Shown here: positions 1-11,938 of the stretch, one piece after another
How positions within the stretch are numbered: position 1 is the stretch's first letter
How the letters are laid out: every line of letters starts with the position of its first letter
Assembly (NCBI GenBank): GCA_021204375.1
Contig: JAJPZL010000366.1
Location: 1-11,938, forward strand
DNA from: Bacteroides sp.
GTDB taxonomy: Bacteria; Bacteroidota; Bacteroidia; Bacteroidales; Bacteroidaceae
Length of the DNA: 11,938 bases
Direction: 5' to 3'
The notes under the pieces: generated by a model
What the model was told of the DNA's origin: nothing
The model's input: only the letters and a program-made list of their open reading frames with translations
Databases searched by the model: none
Program-made: the position numbers and the translations under genes

Positions 1-10
1 AAATATAACT

Positions 11-1585
11 GTGACAAGCGAACTAGTAGTTGATGTACAGCCGAAAGAGGTCTCGATAGCGTTGTTAGAGGACAAAAGTCTGGTCGAACTTCAACGGGAG
101 GGCAAAACAGCCTCCTTTTCAGTCGGTAACATGTATCTGGGCCGCGTCAAAAAATTGATGCCCGGTCTGAACGCCTGTTTCGTGGATGTCGGTTATGAAA
201 AAGATGCATTCCTACATTACCTGGACCTCGGTCCTCAATTTAATTCTCTCCAAAAGTATGTAAAGCAAACACTGAGCGACAAAAAAAAGCTGACTCCTGC
301 TTCCAAAGCTACCATTCTACCCGACCTGGATAAGAACGGAACCATTGCCGATGTACTTAAATTCGGTCAGGAGATAGTCGTACAGATTGTAAAAGAACTC
401 ATTTCGACCAAAGGACCCAGACTCACTTCCGAGATATCTTTTTCCGGAAGATACCTGGTGCTTATTCCTTTCAACGAAAAGGTATCTGTTTCTCAAAAAA
501 TTAAATCAGGTGAAGAGAGAGCACGCCTGAAACAACTTTTGCAAAGTATTAAACCCAAACATTTCGGGGTTATAGTACGTACAGTTGCCGAAGGAAAGCG
601 TGTAGTTGAGCTTGATGCAGAACTGAAGATCTTATTAAAACATTGGGAAGAGAGTATAACCCGGGTGCAAAAAGCAACAAAGTATCCTACTCTTATTTAT
701 GAAGAGACGAGCCGGGCAGTCGCCATGCTACGGGATCTTTTCAATCCTTCTTTCAAGAACATTTATGTAAACGACAGTAAGGTCTACGAAGAGATCAGGG
801 ATTATGTGGGTCTTATCGCTCCTGAAAGGGCGGGCATTGTGAAGTTATACAAAGAACAACTTCCGATTTTTGATAATTTCGCCATTACCAAACAAATTAA
901 ATCCTCTTTTGGCAAAACAGTATCTTATAAAAGCGGTGCCTACCTCATTATCGAACACACAGAAGCCCTCCATGTGGTCGATGTAAACAGCGGTAACCAT
1001 GCAAAAAATGCCAACGGACAGGAAGCCAATGCACTGGAAGTAAATCTGGGAGCTGCCGATGAACTGGCACGCCAGCTCAGACTGAGAGATATGGGAGGTA
1101 TCATTGTGGTGGATTTCATTGATATGAATGAAGGTGAGAACCGCAAGAAACTTTATGAACGTATGTATGCTAATATGCAGAAAGACAGGGCACAGCACAA
1201 CATTCTTCCACTCAGTAAGTTTGGTCTGATGCAGATCACCCGGCAGAGAGTACGGCCGGCTATGGATGTAAATACCACAGAAAGCTGTCCGACCTGTTTT
1301 GGGAAAGGTACTATTCAGTCTTCCGTACTTTTCACCGACACTTTAGAGAATAAAATTGACTACCTGGTAAATAAACTGGGAATTAAAAAGTTTTCATTAC
1401 ACATCCATCCGTTTGTAGCGGCCTTTGTTAATCAGGGTGTCCTCTCCCTGAAACGTAAGTGGCAGCTCAAATACGGTTTCGGAATAAAAATTATTCCGAG
1501 TCAGAAACTGGCCTATCTGGAATATATCTTTTATGACTCCCAGGGTGAGGAGATCGACATGAAAGAAGAACATGAGATAAAATAG
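11..1585 (+). CDS. rng: Ribonuclease E/G family protein (RNase G)
   Basis: This is a cytoplasmic endoribonuclease that cuts single-stranded RNA in rRNA maturation and mRNA turnover. The protein has 524 residues, the usual length for the Bacteroidales form, and is uninterrupted. An S1-like RNA-binding region covers about residues 38-130. The DNase I-like catalytic part carries D324 in VVDVNSG and D368 in VVDFIDM, the two metal-binding aspartates expected in RNase E/G. C426 and C429 in CPTC form the zinc link. The start is a GTG at position 11, chosen because the family N-terminus (MTSELVVDV) begins there; upstream sequence is almost absent. A terminator follows 5 bases after the TAG stop, so it is not cotranscribed with the pump gene. 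From memory of homologues, P is expected at residue 130 (L here) and R at residues 330 and 395 (H and Q here). Confidence 0.96.
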   Translation: MTSELVVDVQPKEVSIALLEDKSLVELQREGKTASFSVGNMYLGRVKKLMPGLNACFVDVGYEKDAFLHYLDLGPQFNSLQKYVKQTLSDKKKLTPASKATILPDLDKNGTIADVLKFGQEIVVQIVKELISTKGPRLTSEISFSGRYLVLIPFNEKVSVSQKIKSGEERARLKQLLQSIKPKHFGVIVRTVAEGKRVVELDAELKILLKHWEESITRVQKATKYPTLIYEETSRAVAMLRDLFNPSFKNIYVNDSKVYEEIRDYVGLIAPERAGIVKLYKEQLPIFDNFAITKQIKSSFGKTVSYKSGAYLIIEHTEALHVVDVNSGNHAKNANGQEANALEVNLGAADELARQLRLRDMGGIIVVDFIDMNEGENRKKLYERMYANMQKDRAQHNILPLSKFGLMQITRQRVRPAMDVNTTESCPTCFGKGTIQSSVLFTDTLENKIDYLVNKLGIKKFSLHIHPFVAAFVNQGVLSLKRKWQLKYGFGIKIIPSQKLAYLEYIFYDSQGEEIDMKEEHEIK

Positions 1586-1590
1586 AAAAG

Positions 1591-1626
1591 ATGGCCGTGT
1601 ATAGTTAAATATACGGCCGTTTTTTC
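1591..1626 (+). terminator. Intrinsic terminator after rng
   Basis: A 12-bp stem (1591-1602 with 1609-1620, two G-U wobbles) encloses a 6-base loop and is followed directly by a run of T (1620-1625). It begins 5 bases after the rng stop codon. This is a classical rho-independent terminator and separates rng from the MATE gene. Confidence 0.88.
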
Positions 1627-1668
1627 TTACCATCCTTTACACTCTCTTACTTTTTTATTTTAAATATG

Positions 1669-1676
1669 TACTTTTG
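1669..1676 (+). promoter_or_regulatory. Bacteroidetes-type -7 promoter box upstream of MATE gene
   Basis: TACTTTTG matches the Bacteroidetes primary sigma factor -7 consensus TAnnTTTG exactly. No convincing -33 TTTG is visible; the upstream part is T-rich. The box ends 5 bases before the MATE start codon at 1682, so transcription would begin at or next to the ATG and the mRNA would be almost leaderless. The call rests on the consensus match and on the position just after a terminator. Confidence 0.55.
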
Positions 1677-1681
1677 CATGT

Positions 1682-3055
1682 ATGGAACCAAAAACAAACC
1701 TGACTTATAAAAGTGTCTGGACAATTGTCTACCCTATTCTGATCAGTCTTTTGATGGAACAATTGATCGGTATGACCGATACAGCCTTTCTGGGACGTGT
1801 AGGAGAGATTGAATTGGGTGCTTCTGCACTGGCAGGTGTATATTACCTGGCTATATTTATGCTGGGATTTGGTTTCAGTCTGGGAGCTCAGATCCTGATA
1901 GCACGCCGTAACGGAGAAAAAGAGTACAAACAGATCGGGCAAATATTTTACCAGGGTACCCTTATGCTGCTGATAATGGCTGTCTGCATATTCATCTTAT
2001 CGTAGATCTTTTCCCCCCGCATCCTGAAAGGCATTATCGAATCGGAAGCTATTTATGAATCTGCCCTTCAATACATCAACTGGCGTATCTACGGATTCTT
2101 TTTCTCTTTTATCGCGGTTATGTTCCGGTCATTTTTTGTAGGCACGACCCAGACCAAGACCCTGACAGCCAATTCATTGGTAATGGTAGCCTTAAACATC
2201 CTGTTCAACTATATACTGATATTCGGAAAATTTGGTTTTCCGACATTAGGCATTGCAGGAGCTGCCATCGGTTCTTCATTGGCGGAGTTAATGTCCGTAC
2301 TCTTTTTTATTATCTATACCATTCGGAAAGTGGATATTCGCAAGTACGGGCTGAACATATTCCACGGTTTGCAGAAACGGGTGATCAAACAGATCCTCAA
2401 TGTCTCTTTGTGGACCATGATCCAGAACTTTACCTCCCTCTCTACCTGGTTTCTCTTCTTTATTGCTGTAGAGCACCTGGGAGAACGCCCACTGGCCATT
2501 ACTAACATCATCCGCAGTCTCTCTTCGGTGTTATTTACCATTATGATCGCCTTTGCTTCTACGTGCGGTTCCCTGGTAAGTAACTTTATCGGTGCGGGTG
2601 AAAGCAACAAAGTATTTCAGGTGATCATGATCCGTATAAAAATAAGTTATATGATACTGGTCCCCTTGGGAATACTTTTTACCGTTTTTCCCGAAACAGT
2701 GATCCGTATCTATACCAACAATACGAAACTCATTTCGGCAGCTGTTCCCTCTTTGTGGATCATGTGTACGGCTTATATCTTCCTGATACCAGGAAATATT
2801 CTATTCCAGTCTGTCTCGGGAACCGGCAATATCAGGACAGCCTTCCTGCTGGAGATCATTACCATGGTGATATATGTCCTGTATGTAACTTATATGATCT
2901 TCTACCGGAAAATAGATGTAGCTCTTTGCTGGACAACCGAACATGTCTATGGTTTTACTATTATGACGGCCTGTTACTGGTATCTGAAAAAGGGCCACTG
3001 GCAAGATAAAAAATATAAATTTATTCAGAAGAACAAGCCCCGGAAAACCCTGTAA
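1682..3055 (+). pseudogene. MATE family multidrug/cation efflux transporter, interrupted by an in-frame TAG
   Basis: This is an inner-membrane Na+- or H+-driven exporter of the MATE family. Read through the stop it gives 457 codons, normal MATE length, with about twelve hydrophobic segments. The N-terminal half has EQLIGMTDTAFLGRVG and GFGFSLGAQILIARRNGE; the region FRSFFVGTTQTKT and the loop FGKFGFPTLGIAGAAIGSS are typical of Bacteroidales MATE proteins. A TAG at 2003-2005 (codon 108) splits the gene in helix 3-4. The reading frame is otherwise identical on both sides and no second lesion was seen. The downstream part could in principle restart at 2120, but that would lack the first three helices and is unlikely to work. 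The gene is flanked by a terminator and its own promoter upstream, and its stop codon lies in the loop of a long hairpin. I infer a recent pseudogene; substrate unknown. Confidence 0.87.
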
Positions 3056-3074
3056 TTTTCCGGGGCTTGTTCTT
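3029..3074 (+). terminator. Perfect 19-bp hairpin at the end of the MATE gene, probable terminator
   Basis: Positions 3029-3047 pair without mismatch with 3056-3074 around an 8-base loop (3048-3055). The stem includes the GC-rich core GCCCCGG/CCGGGGC. The left arm is coding sequence for the last residues of the MATE protein and its TAA (3053-3055) closes the loop. No T run follows the stem on either strand beyond TTCTT within the arm, so termination strength is uncertain. A mRNA-stabilising 3' hairpin is an alternative. Confidence 0.7.
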
Positions 3075-3186
3075 CCGGTATACCTCCGTTAATATTTCCC
3101 TGTTCCGGTCAACACTTTCAGGTTTTATCTGTTTACTATAATATCCTTTTACGGAACAGTATAATATAAAACCTAAAATTTTCAAT

Positions 3187-4881
3187 ATGGATTGGATTAT
3201 TAGTCAACTCCGTACATATCCGGAGCTTGCTATTTTTCTCACACTTTCCCTGGGATTCCTGATAGGAAAAATAAAGATCGGTATGTTCAGCCTGGGTACT
3301 GTTACCAGTGTACTACTGGTTGGAGTACTGGTAGGGCAGCTTAATATTCCTATTACCGGCCCCCTTAAATCTGTTTTTTCCCTGCTCTTTCTATTTGCCA
3401 TCGGTTATAAGGTAGGACCCCAATTCTTCAGAGGGTTGAAAAAGAACGGCCTTCCCCAGGTACTTTTTGCAGCCATCATGTGTATATTCTGCCTGATCGT
3501 TCCCTAGATCCTTGCTAGAATAATGGGTTATAATGCGGGAGAGGCAGCCGAACTTCTGGCAGGTTCGCAAACCATTTCAGCAGTGATCGGTGTAGCCGAT
3601 GATACCATCAAAGGATTGAACCTGACGGATACCGAAAAGACCAACATGATCAATATTATCCCGGTAGCTTACGCAGTAACCTATATCTTCGGGACAGCAG
3701 GTTCTGCCTGGGTCCTTGCCACCTTAGACCCTAAAATGCTGGGAGGTCTTGATAAAGTAAAAGCAGCCTGCAAAGAGCTGGAAGGAGAAATGGGAAGTTC
3801 AGAAGCCGATGAACCGGACTTTGTACACGCCTTACGGCCGGTCGTTTTCCGTTCCTACGAAATACAGAACGATTGGTTTAACGGAGGTAAAAAGGTGAGT
3901 GAGTTAGAACAATATTTCCTGCAGGACGGCAAGCGCATCTTTGTAGAACGAATACGGACAAACGGAAAGATCCAGGAGGTGACTCCGGATACCGTACTGA
4001 ATAAAGGAGATGAGATAGTCCTGAGCGGACGACGCGAATTTGTCATAGAAGAAGAGACCTGGGTGGGACCTGAGGTCACCGACGACCAGCTACTGGATTT
4101 CCCGGTAGAATCCATTCCGGTCATGGTAACTAAAAAACATACGCCGGCCGCAGCGTAGCAGATATCCGACAGGATAAAACCATGCACGGAGTCAGTATAT
4201 CTTCTATAAAACGTGCGAGTATTGATATTCCGGTTTTAGCTAAAATAGTCGTTGATGCCGGCGATATGCTCCAGATCACCGGTTTAAAACAGGAGGTGAA
4301 CGAAGCCGCTAAACACCTGGGTTATGTGGACCGTCCTTCCAACCAGACCGATATGGTATTTGTAGGCCTTGGTATCCTCCTAAGCGGATTATTCGGTGCA
4401 CTGGCTATTCATATAGGAGGGGTTCCTATTAGTTTAAGTACAAGTGGCGGTGCTCTTATATTCGGACTTATATTCGGTTGGTTACGCAGCAAACACCCAA
4501 CGTTCGGAGGGATTCCTGAGCCGGCTATCTGAATACTGAATAATGTAGGGTTGAACATGTTCATTGCCGTAGTGGGAATCACAGCAGGTCCCAGTTTTAT
4601 ACAGGGATTTCAACAGGTAGGTGTAAGTCTTTTCCTGGTAGGAGCATTAGCTACGGCCATCCCCCTTATTCTTGAACTGCTGATGGCACGCTATCTCTTT
4701 AAGTTCCATCCGGCCCTATGTCTGGGATGTACCGCAGGGGCCCGTACCACGACCGCTGCGTTAGGGGCTATACAAGATACCGTAGAGAGCCAGACCCCCT
4801 CGCTGGGATATACCGTTACCTACGCCGTAGGCAATATACTGCTTATTATCTGGGGGGGTAGTGATCGTCCTCCTTATGTAA
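3187..4881 (+). pseudogene. aspT: Aspartate:alanine antiporter (AspT, AAE family), multiply disrupted
   Basis: AspT exchanges external aspartate for internal alanine across the inner membrane. The order is family-typical: an N-terminal membrane half ([12 protein letters not shown], then [22 protein letters not shown]), two TrkA-C/RCK_C domains in the middle (around 3840-4060 and 4145-4320), then a second membrane half with [18 protein letters not shown] and [14 protein letters not shown]. About 564 codons, normal length. Four lesions: TAG at 3505-3507 (codon 107, probably Trp); a one-base loss in the A run 4132-4137, since seven As would restore [22 protein letters not shown] at 4530-4532, where Trp is expected before ILNNVGLN; and one extra G in 4852-4858, since six Gs restore the end WGVVIVLLM and TAA at 4879-4881. 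The two indels cancel in length. The gene precedes aspD by 30 bases. The AT-rich upstream region (3075-3186) has TATAAT-like words but no clear TAnnTTTG box. Confidence 0.9.
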
Positions 4882-4911
4882 TCCATAAAAATAACAATTT
4901 AAATTCACTAT

Positions 4912-6585
4912 ATGAAAGAAAAAGAAGAAAATGTTCTCAACAGAAAGTTTCTGGAAGGAATGGAGAAGATCAGCCCGTTTGAATTAAAGAACAAACTCAT
5001 TGATATGGCTGATGAGAGTATACGGAAATCAACCCATATTATGTTGAACGCCGGTCGGGATAATCCCAACTGGATCAGTACCGTACCCCGCGAAGCATTC
5101 TTCCTGTTGGGTAAGTTTAGTATTGAAGAGTGTAAACGGGTGATGGATCTCCCCGAGGATATAGCAGGTATTCCCGAAAAAGAGGGGATCGCCTCCTGTT
5201 TTGAAGCATTTCTGAAAAAGAATGAAAGTGAGGCAGGAGCAGAATTATTAAAAAACTCCTATAACTATACGCTGATGAAGCATGCGGTTGATCCGGATAG
5301 CCTGGTGCACGAATGGGCCGAAGGAGTGATCGGCGACTAGTACCCGGTTCCGGACCGTATCCTGCAATATACAGAGATCATTGTGCAGGATTACCTCGCC
5401 CAGGAAATGTGTGATAATAATCCTCCTCCCGGAAAATACGATCTGTTCGCAACCGAAGGGGGAACAGCAGCCATGTGCTATATTTTTGACTCTCTGCAGG
5501 AGAACTACCTGTTAAATAAAGGAGACCGTATTGCACTAATGGTCCCCACCTTCACTCCCTACATTGAAATACCCGAACTGAAACGGTATAGTTTTGATGT
5601 AACCCAGATCCATGCCGACCAGATGACCCGGGACGGATATCATACCTGGCAATATAACGAAGAAGAGATTGATAAGTTACGGGATCCCGACGTAAAAGCG
5701 CTCTTTGTGATTAATCCCAGTAATCCTCCCAGTTATGCGCTTAGTCCTAAAACGGTGAAACATATTGTGGATATTGTAACAAAGAACAATCCCAATCTGA
5801 TGATCATTACAGACGACGTATACGGTACCTTTATATCCAACTTCCGTTCCCTAATGGCCGATCTGCCCCGCAATACCCTGTGTGTTTACTCCTTCTCCAA
5901 ATACTTCGGAGCTACCGGATGGCGTACAGCTGTTATTGCCCTCCACCAGGACAATATATACGATAAACAACTATCCCGCCTCACCCAGGAGCAGAAACTC
6001 AGCCTGACCAGAAGATACGGTTCGCTGGGAGTAAATGCAGACAACATGAAACTGATCGACAGGATGGTAGCCGACAGTCGTCAGGTAGCTCTTAACCATA
6101 CCGCAGGGCTCTCTTTGCCCCAACAAACCCAGATGAGCCTTTTTGCACTTTATGCATTGCTCGATAAGAAGAATGTATACAAAGAAAAAATGCACGGGAT
6201 CATCCGTTCGCGCTTGTCTGCCCTTTGAGAGAATACAGGATTTACCCTCCTGAAAGATCCTTTACGCGCAGGTTATTATGCAGAAATAGATATGCTGATA
6301 TGGGCGGAGAAATTCTACGGAAAAGAGTTCGTCAATTTCCTGAAAGGACATTTCGATCCGTTGGATGTAGTATTCCGGCTGGCTAACGAGACCTCCATCG
6401 TATTGCTGAACGGAGGAGGATTCGGAGGTCCTGAATGGAGTATCCGGGCCTCACTGGCTAATCTCAACGAAAGCGACTACATAGTGATCGGAAAAGCTAT
6501 CCTGAAGATCCTTGAAGAGTATGCATAGGAATGGCAGAATAGCGAAAGTCCGGAGAAAAGCCGTAAAAAAAGTACTAAGAAATAG
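4912..6585 (+). pseudogene. aspD: Aspartate 4-decarboxylase (PLP-dependent, bifunctional with aspartate aminotransferase), three in-frame stops
   Basis: This fold-type I PLP enzyme converts L-aspartate to L-alanine and CO2, consuming a proton. Read through the stops it has 557 codons, normal for the family. The PLP-binding lysine is K330 in YSFSKYFGATGWR; TDDVYGTF, NPSNPPSYALSP and the C-terminal FGGPEWSIRASLANL (substrate-carboxylate Arg) are all present. The breaks are TAG at 5338-5340 (codon 143, before YPVPDR; Gln from CAG is likely), TGA at 6226-6228 (codon 439, where Trp is expected before ENTGFTL), and TAG at 6526-6528 (codon 539), after which EWQNSESPEKSRKKSTKK and a second TAG (6583-6585) form the ancestral end. 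The last stop alone would trim only 19 residues; the others abolish the enzyme. GRDNPNW (residues 48-54) probably was GRGNPNW. It follows aspT, its antiporter partner. Confidence 0.92.
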
Positions 6586-6634
6586 TCCGTTATACATCAA
6601 TTCTGTTTATAAAGGCAAAATAATCTCCTTTCAT

Positions 6635-6669
6635 CTTTTTAAGCCGGACAACTTGCCCGGCTTAAAAAG
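6635..6669. repeat. 13-bp inverted repeat between aspD and the porin gene
   Basis: Positions 6635-6647 pair perfectly with 6657-6669 around a 9-base loop. The arms are CTTTTTAAGCCGG and its complement. The GC core AAGCCGG/CCGGCTT resembles a terminator, but on both strands the T tract is at the 5' side of the stem and the A tract at the 3' side, the reverse of a normal intrinsic terminator. A T5 run appears a little later at 6674-6678. It may be a weak terminator for the aspT-aspD transcript or a leader hairpin for the porin gene. The rest of 6586-6728 shows nothing else clear. Confidence 0.6.
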
Positions 6670-6728
6670 AAAATTTTTAGCTACACTCCTACTGCACACA
6701 CTTTCCATACCCTTAAGAAAGCTACACC

Positions 6729-7802
6729 ATGAAACAACGCCTTATCTTATGCTGTATATTCTCCTTTGCTGTAGGAAAATTGCTCTACAACCAGGATCAG
6801 TTACTGAATTTCGGAATTGATTTCCGGACCGATTACGATACCCGCATCAATAATCACCAACCGGATGTGAGCGATATCAGACTTCAGACACTCAGCCTTT
6901 TGTTTTTCGGAGAACTATATCCCGGCATTACCTATTGCTTAGAAGAGAAACTCAATAACACAGGACCCCTGACTGTAGACGAATATATGGGGAGTACAGC
7001 CAATGCGTAGATAAATTTCGCTCCCCGTAACTGGAGGTGGAGTTTCACAGTAGGTAAACAGGATATCATGTTCGGTTCTTTTGAAAGTGATTACGATTCC
7101 AGCGATCTGTACCTCACCTCTATGGTCTTTGATAACTTTACCCGTAGCCAGGTAGGGGTTGCCGCTAATTATTACTATCACAATCAATTTCTATCGATGC
7201 AGGTATCTAACATAACAGGTCAGCAACTCTCTTATGATGAAAACCACTCTTTCGCTTACACCCTGAACGGAAAGGGTAATTATTTTAAAGGGATGATCCT
7301 GGTCTCCCTCTCCTATACATTGGTACAAAGCGGACATGGAAAGATCTTTCACTGGGCCTCTCTGGGTACACAGATCCGTGCCGGAAACTTTTTCACCGAG
7401 ATTGATGCTTATGCCGGACGTTACAGGCAGAATATGACCATAGATAGTAGTCAGAGCAATTACCGGGAAGCAGACAACCTCTCGGTTTCCATCAGCGAAA
7501 GTTTCTGTTTCGGAAAGTTCCGGCCTTTTGTAAAATTAGCCGCTAACTGGCAGGAAGATGTAGAAACTAGTACACTAAGCCGCAGAAGTTACGGAGGAGC
7601 AGCCGGATTAGAGTATTATTCCATCCGGGGAGAAGATTTCCGGATACACATTGTATACCAAAACCACCGGAACCGTTACGGAGAGATGTGGTTAGACAGG
7701 GAAGGCACAGAGAAAATCAATATCATTACTGCCGGAATGAAGTGGAAGCTTACCATCGGTTCGCTGGTAACCAAGGCCAAAGAGCTGATCACCGGAAAAT
7801 AA
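6729..7802 (+). pseudogene. Porin-like outer-membrane beta-barrel protein, interrupted by an in-frame TAG
   Basis: This is probably a phosphate-selective-porin-like (porin O/P type) barrel, 357 codons if read through. The N-terminus MKQRLILCCIFSFAVG looks like a signal peptide, though no clean A-x-A cleavage site is seen. The body shows alternating polar/aromatic strands and repeated aromatic-ended segments. The stretch around codons 94-120 (INFAP, FTVGKQDIMFGSFESDYDSSDLY) resembles the family motif with GKQ, a glycine-rich turn and an acidic patch before DLY. A TAG at 7008-7010 (codon 94) precedes INFAP; Trp (TGG) is likely the original residue. No other lesion was seen. It lies 143 bases after aspD in the same direction and may have supplied outer-membrane passage for aspartate, which is inference. 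Its stop is 7 bases from the convergent kinase gene. Confidence 0.75.
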
Positions 7803-7809
7803 AAACTAC

Positions 7810-9099
7810 TCAGAAACTGATCCGGAACCGGGTCAGGCCATCACTACCGGTACGAAGAGAAAAATTACAATGGTGCCGTTTAAGTATCTCCCTGATCAGA
7901 ATAAGTCCGATCTCCTGTCCGTTAGGTTTGGTAGAGAAGAAAGGAGTAAAAAGTTTCTGTTCGGCCTCCCGGGTTATACTCGGGCCATTATCAATGACCT
8001 CCATTCCCAAAGGAAGAAAAGTTCTCACCCGGATCTCCCCTTCTCTCCCAATACTCTCAGCAGCATTTTTTAGAATATTCACCAGAACCTGTTCAAACAG
8101 AGAAGCATCCATCCATACCAGGGGAAGATCTGCGGTAAATTCGGTTTTCAGGCTGATCCCCCGTTCTAGGCAGCTGCTCTCCATAAAACGGCAACAGGAG
8201 CGGGCCAGTTCATTCAGGTCTACCCAAGTGAGAACAGGATCAGGTATTTTCACCATATCTGCAAAACGTACAATGAAATGACTCATTTTATAACAGCGTT
8301 CCATACACACCTGCATCACATCGCATATATCTTCCATTTCCTCCGCCTCTTCCATAGCCGATAAAACCGTATCCAGTGAGGAAGTAATACCGGCAACCGT
8401 ATTATTTACCTCGTGGACAATCATCCGGATCACCTTCTCATAAGCTTTCTTTTTCGCCCTGAGTACTTCGTCTGTTACCATCTCGATCAGATATAACGGA
8501 TGAGGATAACCTTTATCAATAAAAGAACGATGGCTACATTTATAGATATTAAAATCACTTAAACAAATAGTACGCGAAGTCTCAGGAGGAAGTGTGACCA
8601 GTTCGGCAGCCAAGGAAGATTCCAATCTGGAAAGTTTATTCCCGATCACCTCCTGGGAAGAGGCATTGAGCATACGGAGCACAGTAGGGTTTACCTGGGA
8701 TACTCTTCCCTCTCCCGAAAGAATAATGACCCCCAAAGGAGAGGCATTGATCAGCAGATTCATAAAATGGCGCTGCTCCCGGAGTTGCAACCGTTCCTCT
8801 TTCAATTGCTCCATCATCCGGTTAAAGATCTCCACAATGCGGTCTGCCTCCGTTTGTTCCACCTTGACCAGCCGGCTGCTGAAATCCTGCTCCCGGAGCA
8901 GGTCCATACCGGAACCAATGATATCCAACGGCTGCACCACCTTCCGGTAAAAGAAAATAATATAACAGAGGTTCAACACCCCCGCTCCTTCTACTCCCAG
9001 CAAAAGTTTTTTACCGGGATCCACTGCATACTAGGTGATCATCACCAGCAAACCGACAAACAGGCCCATTAATAAGATAAAATAGTAGCGGACTTTCAT
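7810..9099 (-). pseudogene. Two-component sensor histidine kinase (HAMP-PAS-HisKA-HATPase), interrupted by an in-frame TAG
   Basis: This is the membrane sensor partner of the NtrC-type regulator upstream. The ancestral start is the ATG at 9099, giving MKVRYYFILL and a first transmembrane helix; 13 bases separate it from the regulator stop. Then come a second helix (about 32-50), a HAMP-like region (QPLDIIGSGMDLL), a PAS domain (about 105-210), the phospho-acceptor H229 in MIVHEVNN, and the N box with N345. Length is 429 codons, normal. TAG at 9031-9033 (codon 23) ends translation inside the first helix; an in-frame GTG at 9024 could restart but would lose helix 1. In the ATP lid, DNGPSI has S where G is expected (codon at 7978-7980), and GQEIGL has E where G is expected (7912-7914). 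Both fit G-to-A changes, so even a restarted protein would probably bind ATP poorly. Confidence 0.85.
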
Positions 9100-9112
9100 T
9101 AGGTACGGATCT

Positions 9113-10468
9113 TTACTCCTTAGGAGTTATATTATACTTTTTAAGCCTCCTGTACAGGGCAGCCCTACTTAATCCTAGCTCCAGAGAAGCTTTACTCATA
9201 TTTCCCCCGCATCGCTCCAGCGTATCCAGGATCGTGCGTTTTTCGATCTCTTCCAGAGTAAGGCCCTGCAGAGAATAATTTCCCGCAGGAGTTGCAGAAG
9301 AGGTTTGTATCACATAGGGTTCAAAATGAGAAACGTTCAATCTCCCTCCTCCACTGATAAGGATGGCCCGTTCCACCAGATTTTTCAGTTCCCGGATGTT
9401 TCCCGGATAAGAAAGCCCGCACAGGAACCGCATTGCTTCTCCCTCTATCTCTATCGGCTGCAGATTATTCTTTTTCACTACTTTGTCTGCAAAGTGACGC
9501 ACCAAAAGCGGAATATCCTCCCGTCGCTCCCGAAGAGAGGGAAGACGCAAAGTGATCAGATTAATACGGTAAAAAAGATCCTCCCGGAACCCTCCTTCTC
9601 TTACCCGAACCGGCAGATCAGCATTGGTTGCCGATACCACCCTTACATCGGTTTTACGGGGGATACTATCTCCCAGTATTTCATACGTCTGATCCTGTAG
9701 AATACGCAACAATTTTACCTGGCAGGAGAGATCCAGATCCCCAATTTCATCCAGAAAAATAGTTCCTTTATCAGCCAGCGTAAAACGTCCTGCCCGGTCG
9801 GTCGTGGCATCCGTAAAAGCCCCTTTTTTATGACCGAACATTTCACTCTCAAAGAGCGACTGAGAGATACCTCCCAGATTAACCTTCACGAAAGGGCCTC
9901 CTGTACGGGTACTATTCCGGTGGATAGCTTCTGCGATCAACTCCTTTCCGGTACCACTCTCTCCCGTAATAAGTACCGAAGCATTGGTACGGGCTACCCG
10001 CTTTACCGTATTCAATACTACCATCAAAGCCCCGGAACGCCCTATGATCCCACTACGGTCAAACAGATCTTCTTCCTGTTCCGTGGGTATAGTTACCGTA
10101 CCTGTAAGCTCAAGAGCCGTCTCAATACGTTGCAACAAAGCAGTATTGTTCCAGGGTTTGGTCATAAAATCAAAAGCTCCTGCCTGCATTCCTTTTACCG
10201 CCAGATCAATACTTCCACAGGCAGTCATCAGAATGACCGGGACATCCGGTATAAATATCTTAACCTGTTTCAACAGGGTAATCCCCTCTTCACCGGACGT
10301 AGAAAGAGAAAAGTTCATATCCATCAGGATCAATCGGGGAGCGTGGTTCCGGACCACCTCCATAGCCTCTTTAGGCCCTGAGACAGTAACAACCTCATAA
10401 CCAGCCCTTTTCAGCATAAAGTTAAGAGAAGAACGGATGGCAGAATCGTCGTCAATTACCAGTATCAT
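9113..10468 (-). CDS. NtrC-type sigma-54-dependent response regulator (receiver, AAA+, HTH)
   Basis: This transcription factor opens sigma-54 promoters when phosphorylated. Its 451 residues are uninterrupted. The receiver domain (1-115) has the acidic pocket D6-D8, phospho-acceptor D50, T82 and K104. The AAA+ domain has Walker A GESGTGKE (169-176), the sigma-54 contact loop GAFTDA (216-221, instead of the usual GAFTGA), Walker B GTIFLDE (235-241) and YPGNIRELKN near its end. A Fis-type helix-turn-helix lies at about 415-448 (GNMSKASLELGLSRAALYRRLK). It sits between a TolC-type gene upstream and the histidine kinase downstream, so it probably controlled the efflux operon, which is inference. 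A -7 promoter box lies 24 bases upstream. It is the only intact gene of this - strand group; with kinase and efflux genes broken it may be freshly orphaned. Confidence 0.95.
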   Translation of the reverse strand: MILVIDDDSAIRSSLNFMLKRAGYEVVTVSGPKEAMEVVRNHAPRLILMDMNFSLSTSGEEGITLLKQVKIFIPDVPVILMTACGSIDLAVKGMQAGAFDFMTKPWNNTALLQRIETALELTGTVTIPTEQEEDLFDRSGIIGRSGALMVVLNTVKRVARTNASVLITGESGTGKELIAEAIHRNSTRTGGPFVKVNLGGISQSLFESEMFGHKKGAFTDATTDRAGRFTLADKGTIFLDEIGDLDLSCQVKLLRILQDQTYEILGDSIPRKTDVRVVSATNADLPVRVREGGFREDLFYRINLITLRLPSLRERREDIPLLVRHFADKVVKKNNLQPIEIEGEAMRFLCGLSYPGNIRELKNLVERAILISGGGRLNVSHFEPYVIQTSSATPAGNYSLQGLTLEEIEKRTILDTLERCGGNMSKASLELGLSRAALYRRLKKYNITPKE

Positions 10469-10492
10469 TATCGCACTTGTTGTTTACTTCAA

Positions 10493-10500
10493 CAAATATA
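10493..10500 (-). promoter_or_regulatory. Bacteroidetes-type -7 promoter box for the response regulator
   Basis: On the - strand TATATTTG matches TAnnTTTG exactly. It lies in the 48-base gap between the TolC-type gene stop (10517-10519) and the regulator ATG (10468), with 24 bases to the start codon. No clear -33 TTTG is seen. It would let the regulator and kinase be expressed apart from the upstream efflux gene. Confidence 0.55.
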
Positions 10501-10516
10501 CTATTTTTTCATCATT

Positions 10517-11938
10517 TTACCTTACCAGTTCTTTTTCATCAAATGCAAGAGGAAGCTCTACTTCGAAATCCCACAACGTAAGACTCCGTATCTGATAATA
10601 ATACCAGTACATATAAATCTCAGAGATCAGCTTTTCACGGGCACTATCCTTGCTGGTCTGTGCATCTGCCAGATCCAGGGTATTGATCTTCCCGATCAGG
10701 AATGCCTCCACACTGGTATCATACCGTTTCTGTGCGATCAGGTCGGCCTCCCGGGCAATATGCAACTGGGCAGCCTGGTTATTGAAACGTTCGGTAAGCA
10801 GGAAGATATCCTGGTTAAAGTTCAACTCCTCCTGGCGGATACGGGAACGCACTACATCCCGGTTACTTTCGGCTACCTTCACATTGCCCCGGCGTTTCCC
10901 CCAATCCAGTAAAGGGATCTTCACCCCTACCTGTACAACCTGATTATTAATCAAATCCTGGTAAGAAGTCCTGAGTTCATCACTACTCCCCGTATATCCG
11001 ATACTGGCAAAAAGATTAATACTCCGCAGGTTCCCCTTTGCAGCTGCCACCGCATAGTCTGACTCTAACTGCCTTCTGCGTATATTCCGGGAAAAAGAGT
11101 TGTTCTCCAAAGCTTTACCCAGTACCCGCTCAAAATCTATCCGGGTAACAGGAACCTCATCCGGCATCTCGGCTACTATCACAACCTCCTCTCCCAGATC
11201 CAGGTGTGCCCGCAAAGTAAACATACTGGAGTTAAGGGCACTCTCCGAATCGGTAAGCGCAGCCTGCGCTTTTAAAGCTGAAAGTTTCAACTGCAGCAGT
11301 TCATTTTCAGAGATCTATCCCATATCTCTCCGGGCCTGGGCCACCTGGTACAGATGTTCTGCATTCTTCAGGTTCTGTTGTGCTATCTTCAGGCTCTCTG
11401 TAGAAAGCAATAGACCAAAATAGTAAGAGATCGTATTTAAAGTCACTCTTTCCGTCGCAGTGACATAAGCCGCTTTAGCCTCTTCATAACGAATGGGCTG
11501 AATACGCCTGTTCCATTTCAACGAATTGACCCCGAACACAGGCTGTGTTAACTTAAGGCTCACCGGTACACTCATAAACTGCCTGGTCCCTCCTGTAGTA
11601 AGTTGTTTGAAATAATCCAGCGAAGAGGTAAGCGAAAGCTGCCCGCCCGTCAACCAGATATTCTGGTCCACCGATAGTTCTCCCTGTATATTCATGGTGT
11701 TATTCCTGACGAAAATATAAGATCCGTTCAATTGAAGCAGGGAGCTGTAGCTTCTTTTATAACTGGGTACAGTACCGGTAAAATTCACTTCAGGAAGCAG
11801 ATCAGCCCGGAAAGTTCTATACTCCCAATAAGAGGTTTTTAACTCATTCAGTGCCACCGCTGCATCTACACTTTGCAGACGTGCCAGTACAATAGCTTCC
11901 TGAAGAGTCATTTTCTTTTGTGCCTGTGCATGTAGCCC
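10517..11938 (-). pseudogene. TolC-type outer-membrane efflux protein, interrupted by TAG and cut by the window edge
   Basis: This is the outer-membrane channel of a tripartite efflux pump. The visible reading frame is 474 codons and continues past the window end: the first codons give GLHAQAQKK, the end of a signal peptide, before MTLQEAIVLARLQSVDA, the usual start of the mature TolC/OEP fold. The two OEP repeats and coiled-coil helices are visible (for example LKIAQQNLKNAEHLYQVAQAR and the region around LLDWGKRRGNVKVAE). The protein is therefore probably secreted, and the ATG at 11911 is not the true start. TAG at 11315-11317, between RRDMG and ISENELLQL, breaks the first helical hairpin; the frame is unchanged on both sides and no other lesion was found. 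The pump subunits (adaptor and ABC or RND component) would be expected outside the window. The regulator gene follows after 48 bases. Confidence 0.86.

Follow-up and report, generated by a model that had tools for sequence, protein, structure and literature searches.

Six of the eight genes in an 11,938-nucleotide stretch of Bacteroides sp. DNA (GenBank assembly GCA_021204375.1, contig JAJPZL010000366.1, positions 1 to 11,938 of the forward strand; hereafter the window) are interrupted by in-frame stops or frameshifts. Our analysis makes it highly probable that the window represents an unexceptional part of a Bacteroides genome in early erosion, in which dispensable genes have recently been broken while genes for growth have remained clean. 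The best reading of the data is that this loss is recent and largely independent in the two species of a young Bacteroides clade.

The window is an entire contig, one of 506 in an assembly that totals 3,300,552 bases and is 79% complete and 1% contaminated, and the genomes of the same genus used for comparison numbered 158, the window's own genome included. The closest relative, G120 (4.0 Mb, 430 contigs, 84% complete; hereafter the sister), matches nearly the whole window at 90–91% identity. In a tree of the rng protein, the window genome and one sister pair up (100/99) within a poorly resolved Bacteroides group.

Interrupted genes of the window

The eight genes were traced with tblastn, using open proteins of congeners as queries, and the alignments run through each gene. 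The features are:

2..1585, plus strand: rng (RNase E/G family), open, 5′ end cut by the contig start; PF10150, E = 1.9e-98
1682..3055, plus strand: MATE-family transporter, TAG at 2003–2005; PF01554 on both pieces
3187..4883, plus strand: aspT-like aspartate:alanine exchanger, TAG at 3505, TGA at 4530, frameshifts at ~4136 and ~4858; PF06826 on four pieces
4912..6582, plus strand: aspD (aspartate 4-decarboxylase), TAG at 5338, TGA at 6226, TAG at 6526; PF00155 on the middle piece
6729..7802, plus strand: porin-like outer membrane protein, TAG at 7008–7010
7810..9099, minus strand: PAS/HAMP sensor histidine kinase, TAG at 9031–9033, near the N terminus; PF02518, PF00989 and a weak PF00672
9113..10468, minus strand: NtrC-type sigma-54 response regulator, open; PF00158, PF00072 and PF02954
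10517..11938, minus strand: TolC-like outer membrane efflux protein, TAG at 11315–11317, 5′ end cut by the contig end; PF02321 on both pieces

This search bore out the first-pass annotation, which had reported nine in-frame stops and two indels in six of the eight genes and had described rng and the response regulator as open; neither of the latter contains a stop. The nine stops are independent of one another (MATE 1, aspT 2, aspD 3, porin 1, kinase 1, TolC 1), and both frameshifts fall in aspT, at an A run (~4131–4137) and a G run (~4858). A further TAG in aspT, at 4156, is a mere consequence of the first frameshift and was left out of the count; the TAG at 6526 in aspD lies approximately 18 codons ahead of the end of the sister's gene.

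The columns of the aspT and aspD stops are open in 9/9 congeners, MATE is open in five, and none of the six congeners (out of ten) that align at the kinase stop has a stop there. The rng protein is 87.6% identical to that of a congener. The porin-like protein, which owes its name to the first-pass annotation and gave no match in a Pfam search, has a copy in one congener, to which it is 48% identical.

In the sister, seven of the eight genes are open (rng, MATE, which lies on two contig pieces, aspD, porin, kinase, response regulator and TolC), which supplied the comparison with the closest intact relative that had been proposed as a check. The exception is aspT, which contains two frameshifts in the sister; one of these falls at the A run that is also affected in the window (~4136), and therefore not every lesion of the window is private to it.

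Two further observations concern response regulators. A lone in-frame stop also occurs in a congener that is otherwise open, within its response regulator gene (L167, G076:C1, 3629–4966). Another response regulator, with 93% identity and a length of just 353 residues (P0122), lies on a 7,687-base NCBI contig; it may come from a third member of the clade, itself broken or cut at the contig end.

Extent of gene loss beyond the window

The receptors with a plug domain, mostly of the SusC/TonB type, revealed that interruption is not confined to the window. Among the 150 of 290 matches that were listed, open frames shorter than 650 amino acids were found for 15 of 23 receptors in the window genome and for 21 of 41 in the sister, versus none of 54 in G014 and none of 32 in G035, which is itself a draft assembly (240 contigs). 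All 15 shortened receptors of the window genome were examined, and 13 of them contain internal stops or frame changes, as do 13 of the 15 examined among the 21 of the sister; a few of the frames meet a contig edge. Several receptors carry 3 to 5 stops.

The same picture emerged from 148 gene models built over 184 kb aligned to the sister (part of one contig, L139, at 80% identity). By a length test, in which a model counts as cut when less than 80% of it is open, 44 of the 148 models are cut here and 11 in the sister, compared with 2 of 55 in pairs of control congeners, one of these two being in the pair that includes G076, the genome with the lone-stop regulator. Eight control pairs gave models and a ninth gave none, with L111 and L114 used twice. 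These counts, together with the receptor lesions, support the proposal that decay extends beyond the window. The length test is blind to late stops and flags 5 of the 10 window models here. On contigs taken at even steps through the assembly it flags 13 of 61 models here and 4 of 61 in the sister, in a sample that is not strictly random: sister loci, fetched for receptors, for GTPases or by one direct search, were available for 9 of the 20 contigs.

A laxer count, which flags a model for any stop or net indel within its alignment, scores 58 of 143 models as interrupted in the window genome and 22 of 143 in the sister. The length test was preferred because the laxer count is noisy in the controls, where it flags 14 of 53 models (clean per pair: 5/5, 6/7, 6/6, 12/13, 6/13, 2/5 and 2/4). 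Five of the 148 models, with more than four indels each, are omitted from the laxer count and from the stop-step tally and missense ratio given below. Open reading frames (ORFs) of at least 300 codons cover 0.573 of the window plus the 20 even-step contigs, versus 0.652 (standard deviation 0.031) in length-matched congeners.

Three other congeners (G156, G163 and G157), suspected of decay for their low completeness, were rejected as further cases: as a group their ORF coverage is 0.659, versus 0.686 in uncut congeners, and G156 and G163 both have open aspT-aspD loci. Two other ways of finding interrupted frames were abandoned: a codon-usage scan proved too weak, and simply counting neighbouring open segments was swamped by antisense frames.

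Neither recA nor MutS1 was found in the window genome; the 3.8 kb around the sister's open recA also has no match there, and the gap may lie in the assembly, which is 79% complete. A dispersed repeat that strongly forms hairpins (L139, G000:C201, 6795–6884 and 7158–7294) has 34 matches here and 55 in the sister, and none in G014 or G076; it is possibly a miniature element specific to the clade or a REP-type repeat.

Age of the inactivation and traces of selection

The ratio of nonsynonymous to synonymous substitution rates (dN/dS) between the window and the sister is low in every broken gene: 0.05–0.06 in aspT, 0.06 in TolC, 0.09 in aspD and MATE, 0.10 in the porin and 0.13 in the kinase. In both open genes it is 0.09. 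Selection must therefore have acted on the broken genes over almost the whole period since divergence from the sister, and their inactivation must be very young. A sister ortholog with a frame was found for 8 of 16 receptors, and none of the 20 stops in these eight pairs is common to both genomes. This strongly suggests that the sisters decay with lesions of their own, and the two results together agree with the first-pass annotation, which had taken the lesions for very recent events.

The ratio of missense to synonymous changes is 0.40–0.41 in genes with a stop here, versus 0.29 in clean genes. This is as expected if neutrality has recently begun, although housekeeping functions are probably also more frequent among the clean genes. 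Polarised missense counts, here versus in the sister, are 40 versus 21 for aspT, aspD and the kinase together and 17 versus 14 for rng and the response regulator; compared without a significance test, they point to relaxed selection.

It could be argued that the losses were not merely tolerated and that inactivation of surface receptors and transport was favoured, for example by phage or by the cost of these systems. TonB/SusC-type receptors, MATE and TolC are indeed prominent among the broken genes, and stops seem approximately threefold over-represented relative to missense changes when the count is limited to broken genes (54 stops, with 21 missense changes expected per neutral stop). An excess of this kind is, however, what selecting genes by the presence of a stop would be expected to produce. 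Selection for a first loss leaves the 3 to 5 stops of several receptors unexplained, and other kinds of genes are broken too. We consider adaptive loss improbable, with only a small chance of being correct.

Housekeeping genes and the origin of the stops

The first-pass annotation had named base damage or consensus errors in a metagenome assembly as an alternative cause; in that case cytosine deamination, as in old DNA, or low coverage would have produced false stops. This was examined in 20 housekeeping genes of the same assembly, which we take, from sequence, length and operon order, to be rpoB, rpoC, infB, fusA, lepA, three tRNA synthetase genes and twelve ribosomal protein genes. They were located by searches that read through stops, except for five taken as open frames; of these five, four lie between stops and equal their counterparts in relatives in length, and the fifth, ileS, is open up to the contig end. 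Some genes of the set are cut at contig ends.

No in-frame stop was found in the 9,291 housekeeping codons, which offer 493 one-step C>T or G>A routes to a stop. At the rate of the window (8 stops, leaving aside 6526, in 3,783 codons), this set should contain 17 to 20 stops, and the probability of finding none is then 3e-8 to 3e-9. Since the window was picked for its lesions, the even-step contigs are the fairer yardstick; their gene models, infB included, hold 13 stops in 17,443 codons, a rate that predicts approximately 7 stops in the housekeeping set, with a probability of none of ~0.001. The placement of the lesions depends on function, which false stops do not explain.

The spectrum of changes is partly as damage would predict. 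When 54 stops were compared with the sister codon, 35 proved to be one C>T or G>A step away; however, 9 are one G>T step away and 1 a T>G step (the other 9 differ by more than one step), and deamination alone therefore cannot be the cause, provided that the older state is the one retained in the sister. At 429 sites a T/A in the window corresponds to a C/G in the sister, and at 351 the reverse holds, but this excess is no larger in the broken than in the open genes, and private substitutions at sites invariant among congeners show no clear excess of C>T or G>A. Moreover, the aspD fragment has an identical counterpart among protein records, with the same end, at 6225; this record derives from a 3,312-base contig, which indicates that the stop is also present in another assembly, one that may come from the same sample. 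The like decay of receptors in the sister, with lesions of its own, is a further argument. Given the clean housekeeping genes and the G>T and T>G stops, damage or error is rejected as the cause, and we regard it as very improbable.

An equally slight chance attaches to the reassignment or efficient read-through of TAG and/or TGA, which would leave the genes working: it would suit the low dN/dS on both sides of the stops and the prevalence of TAG among interior receptor stops (16 of 27), but all three stop codons and frameshifts occur, the housekeeping codons contain no stop of any kind, the residues found in relatives differ among the TAG sites, and none of 5 tRNA genes detected in 49 loci, a small part of the genome, has a suppressor anticodon.

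Observations that weigh against early erosion

Several observations sit uneasily with the erosion of dispensable genes. Firstly, dN/dS is as low in the broken genes (0.05–0.13) as in the open ones, which the proposal accommodates only if decay is very young. Secondly, the sister also has the aspT frameshift at 4136, even though dN/dS is 0.05–0.06 in the halves of the gene on either side of it; this may reflect a repeated slip at the base run, or slippage that is tolerated. Thirdly, the ORF coverage of the sister is not reduced (0.746 over eight loci). Finally, not every conserved gene is spared: that for ribosomal protein L9 (L139, 660–1133) is interrupted by an in-frame stop, at the position of residue 36 in the sister frame, and a gene for an EF-Tu-type GTPase, perhaps, by its length, release factor 3, is broken. 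L9 is dispensable in Escherichia coli. The rpsG gene model shows an 8-base gap relative to the sister, yet its frame aligns without stops. In favour of erosion, infB and a suf-like cluster, both on contig L132, are clean throughout.

Proposed course of gene loss

In the mechanism that we favour, purifying selection on many dispensable genes would have weakened or ceased very recently; nonsense mutations, arising mainly through C:G to T:A change, and one-base slips in base runs would then have been kept, and genes needed for growth would have stayed clean. One-base indels between the two genomes do favour base runs, with 30 of 81 in runs of at least five bases, versus approximately 4% of random positions. 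The usual cause of such erosion is a host-restricted life with small populations, and a narrow, probably host-restricted life may likewise be the cause in this lineage.

A more specific proposal, to which we would give slightly less than an even chance, is that two sister Bacteroides are independently shedding glycan-receptor and transport genes at the same stage, as incipient obligate symbionts in which the imprint of selection has barely faded, and that some base-run frameshifts, such as that in aspT, may be tolerated by slippage. Bacteroides are best known as versatile gut glycan feeders, and incipient obligate symbiosis among them, if true, would have been caught very early.

Early genome erosion is rarely caught, and mostly in Proteobacteria. 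An eroding pair of sisters accompanied by many open congeners would permit direct measurement of the order and rate of gene loss and of the functions lost first. Completeness scores may also understate the quality of such genomes, since real pseudogenes could lower them.

Comparison with known systems

In the portion of the open-licence literature covered, no report of genome erosion inside Bacteroides was found. Synergitannerella mixotrichae, an ectosymbiont of a termite flagellate, is likewise a member of the Bacteroidales and has a genome of comparable size (3.16 Mb, with 100 pseudogenes listed); an obligate association is stated for it, whereas any such association here is presumptive, and the main text of that paper names no Bacteroides or Bacteroidaceae (PMC12483993). 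The Desulfovibrio ectosymbionts of Trichonympha offer a parallel in the reduction of related lineages, but they belong to a different phylum and their association is known (PMC7608387).

The report on Sodalis glossinidius, the secondary symbiont of tsetse flies, describes recent pseudogenes on a large scale, with many genes lost to frameshifts and premature stops, as here, at the onset of host-dependent life (PMC3091646). Unlike Sodalis, the window genome belongs to another phylum and is one of two sister species that decay with different lesions. The process is well known in kind, and this Bacteroides lineage appears to be new for it.

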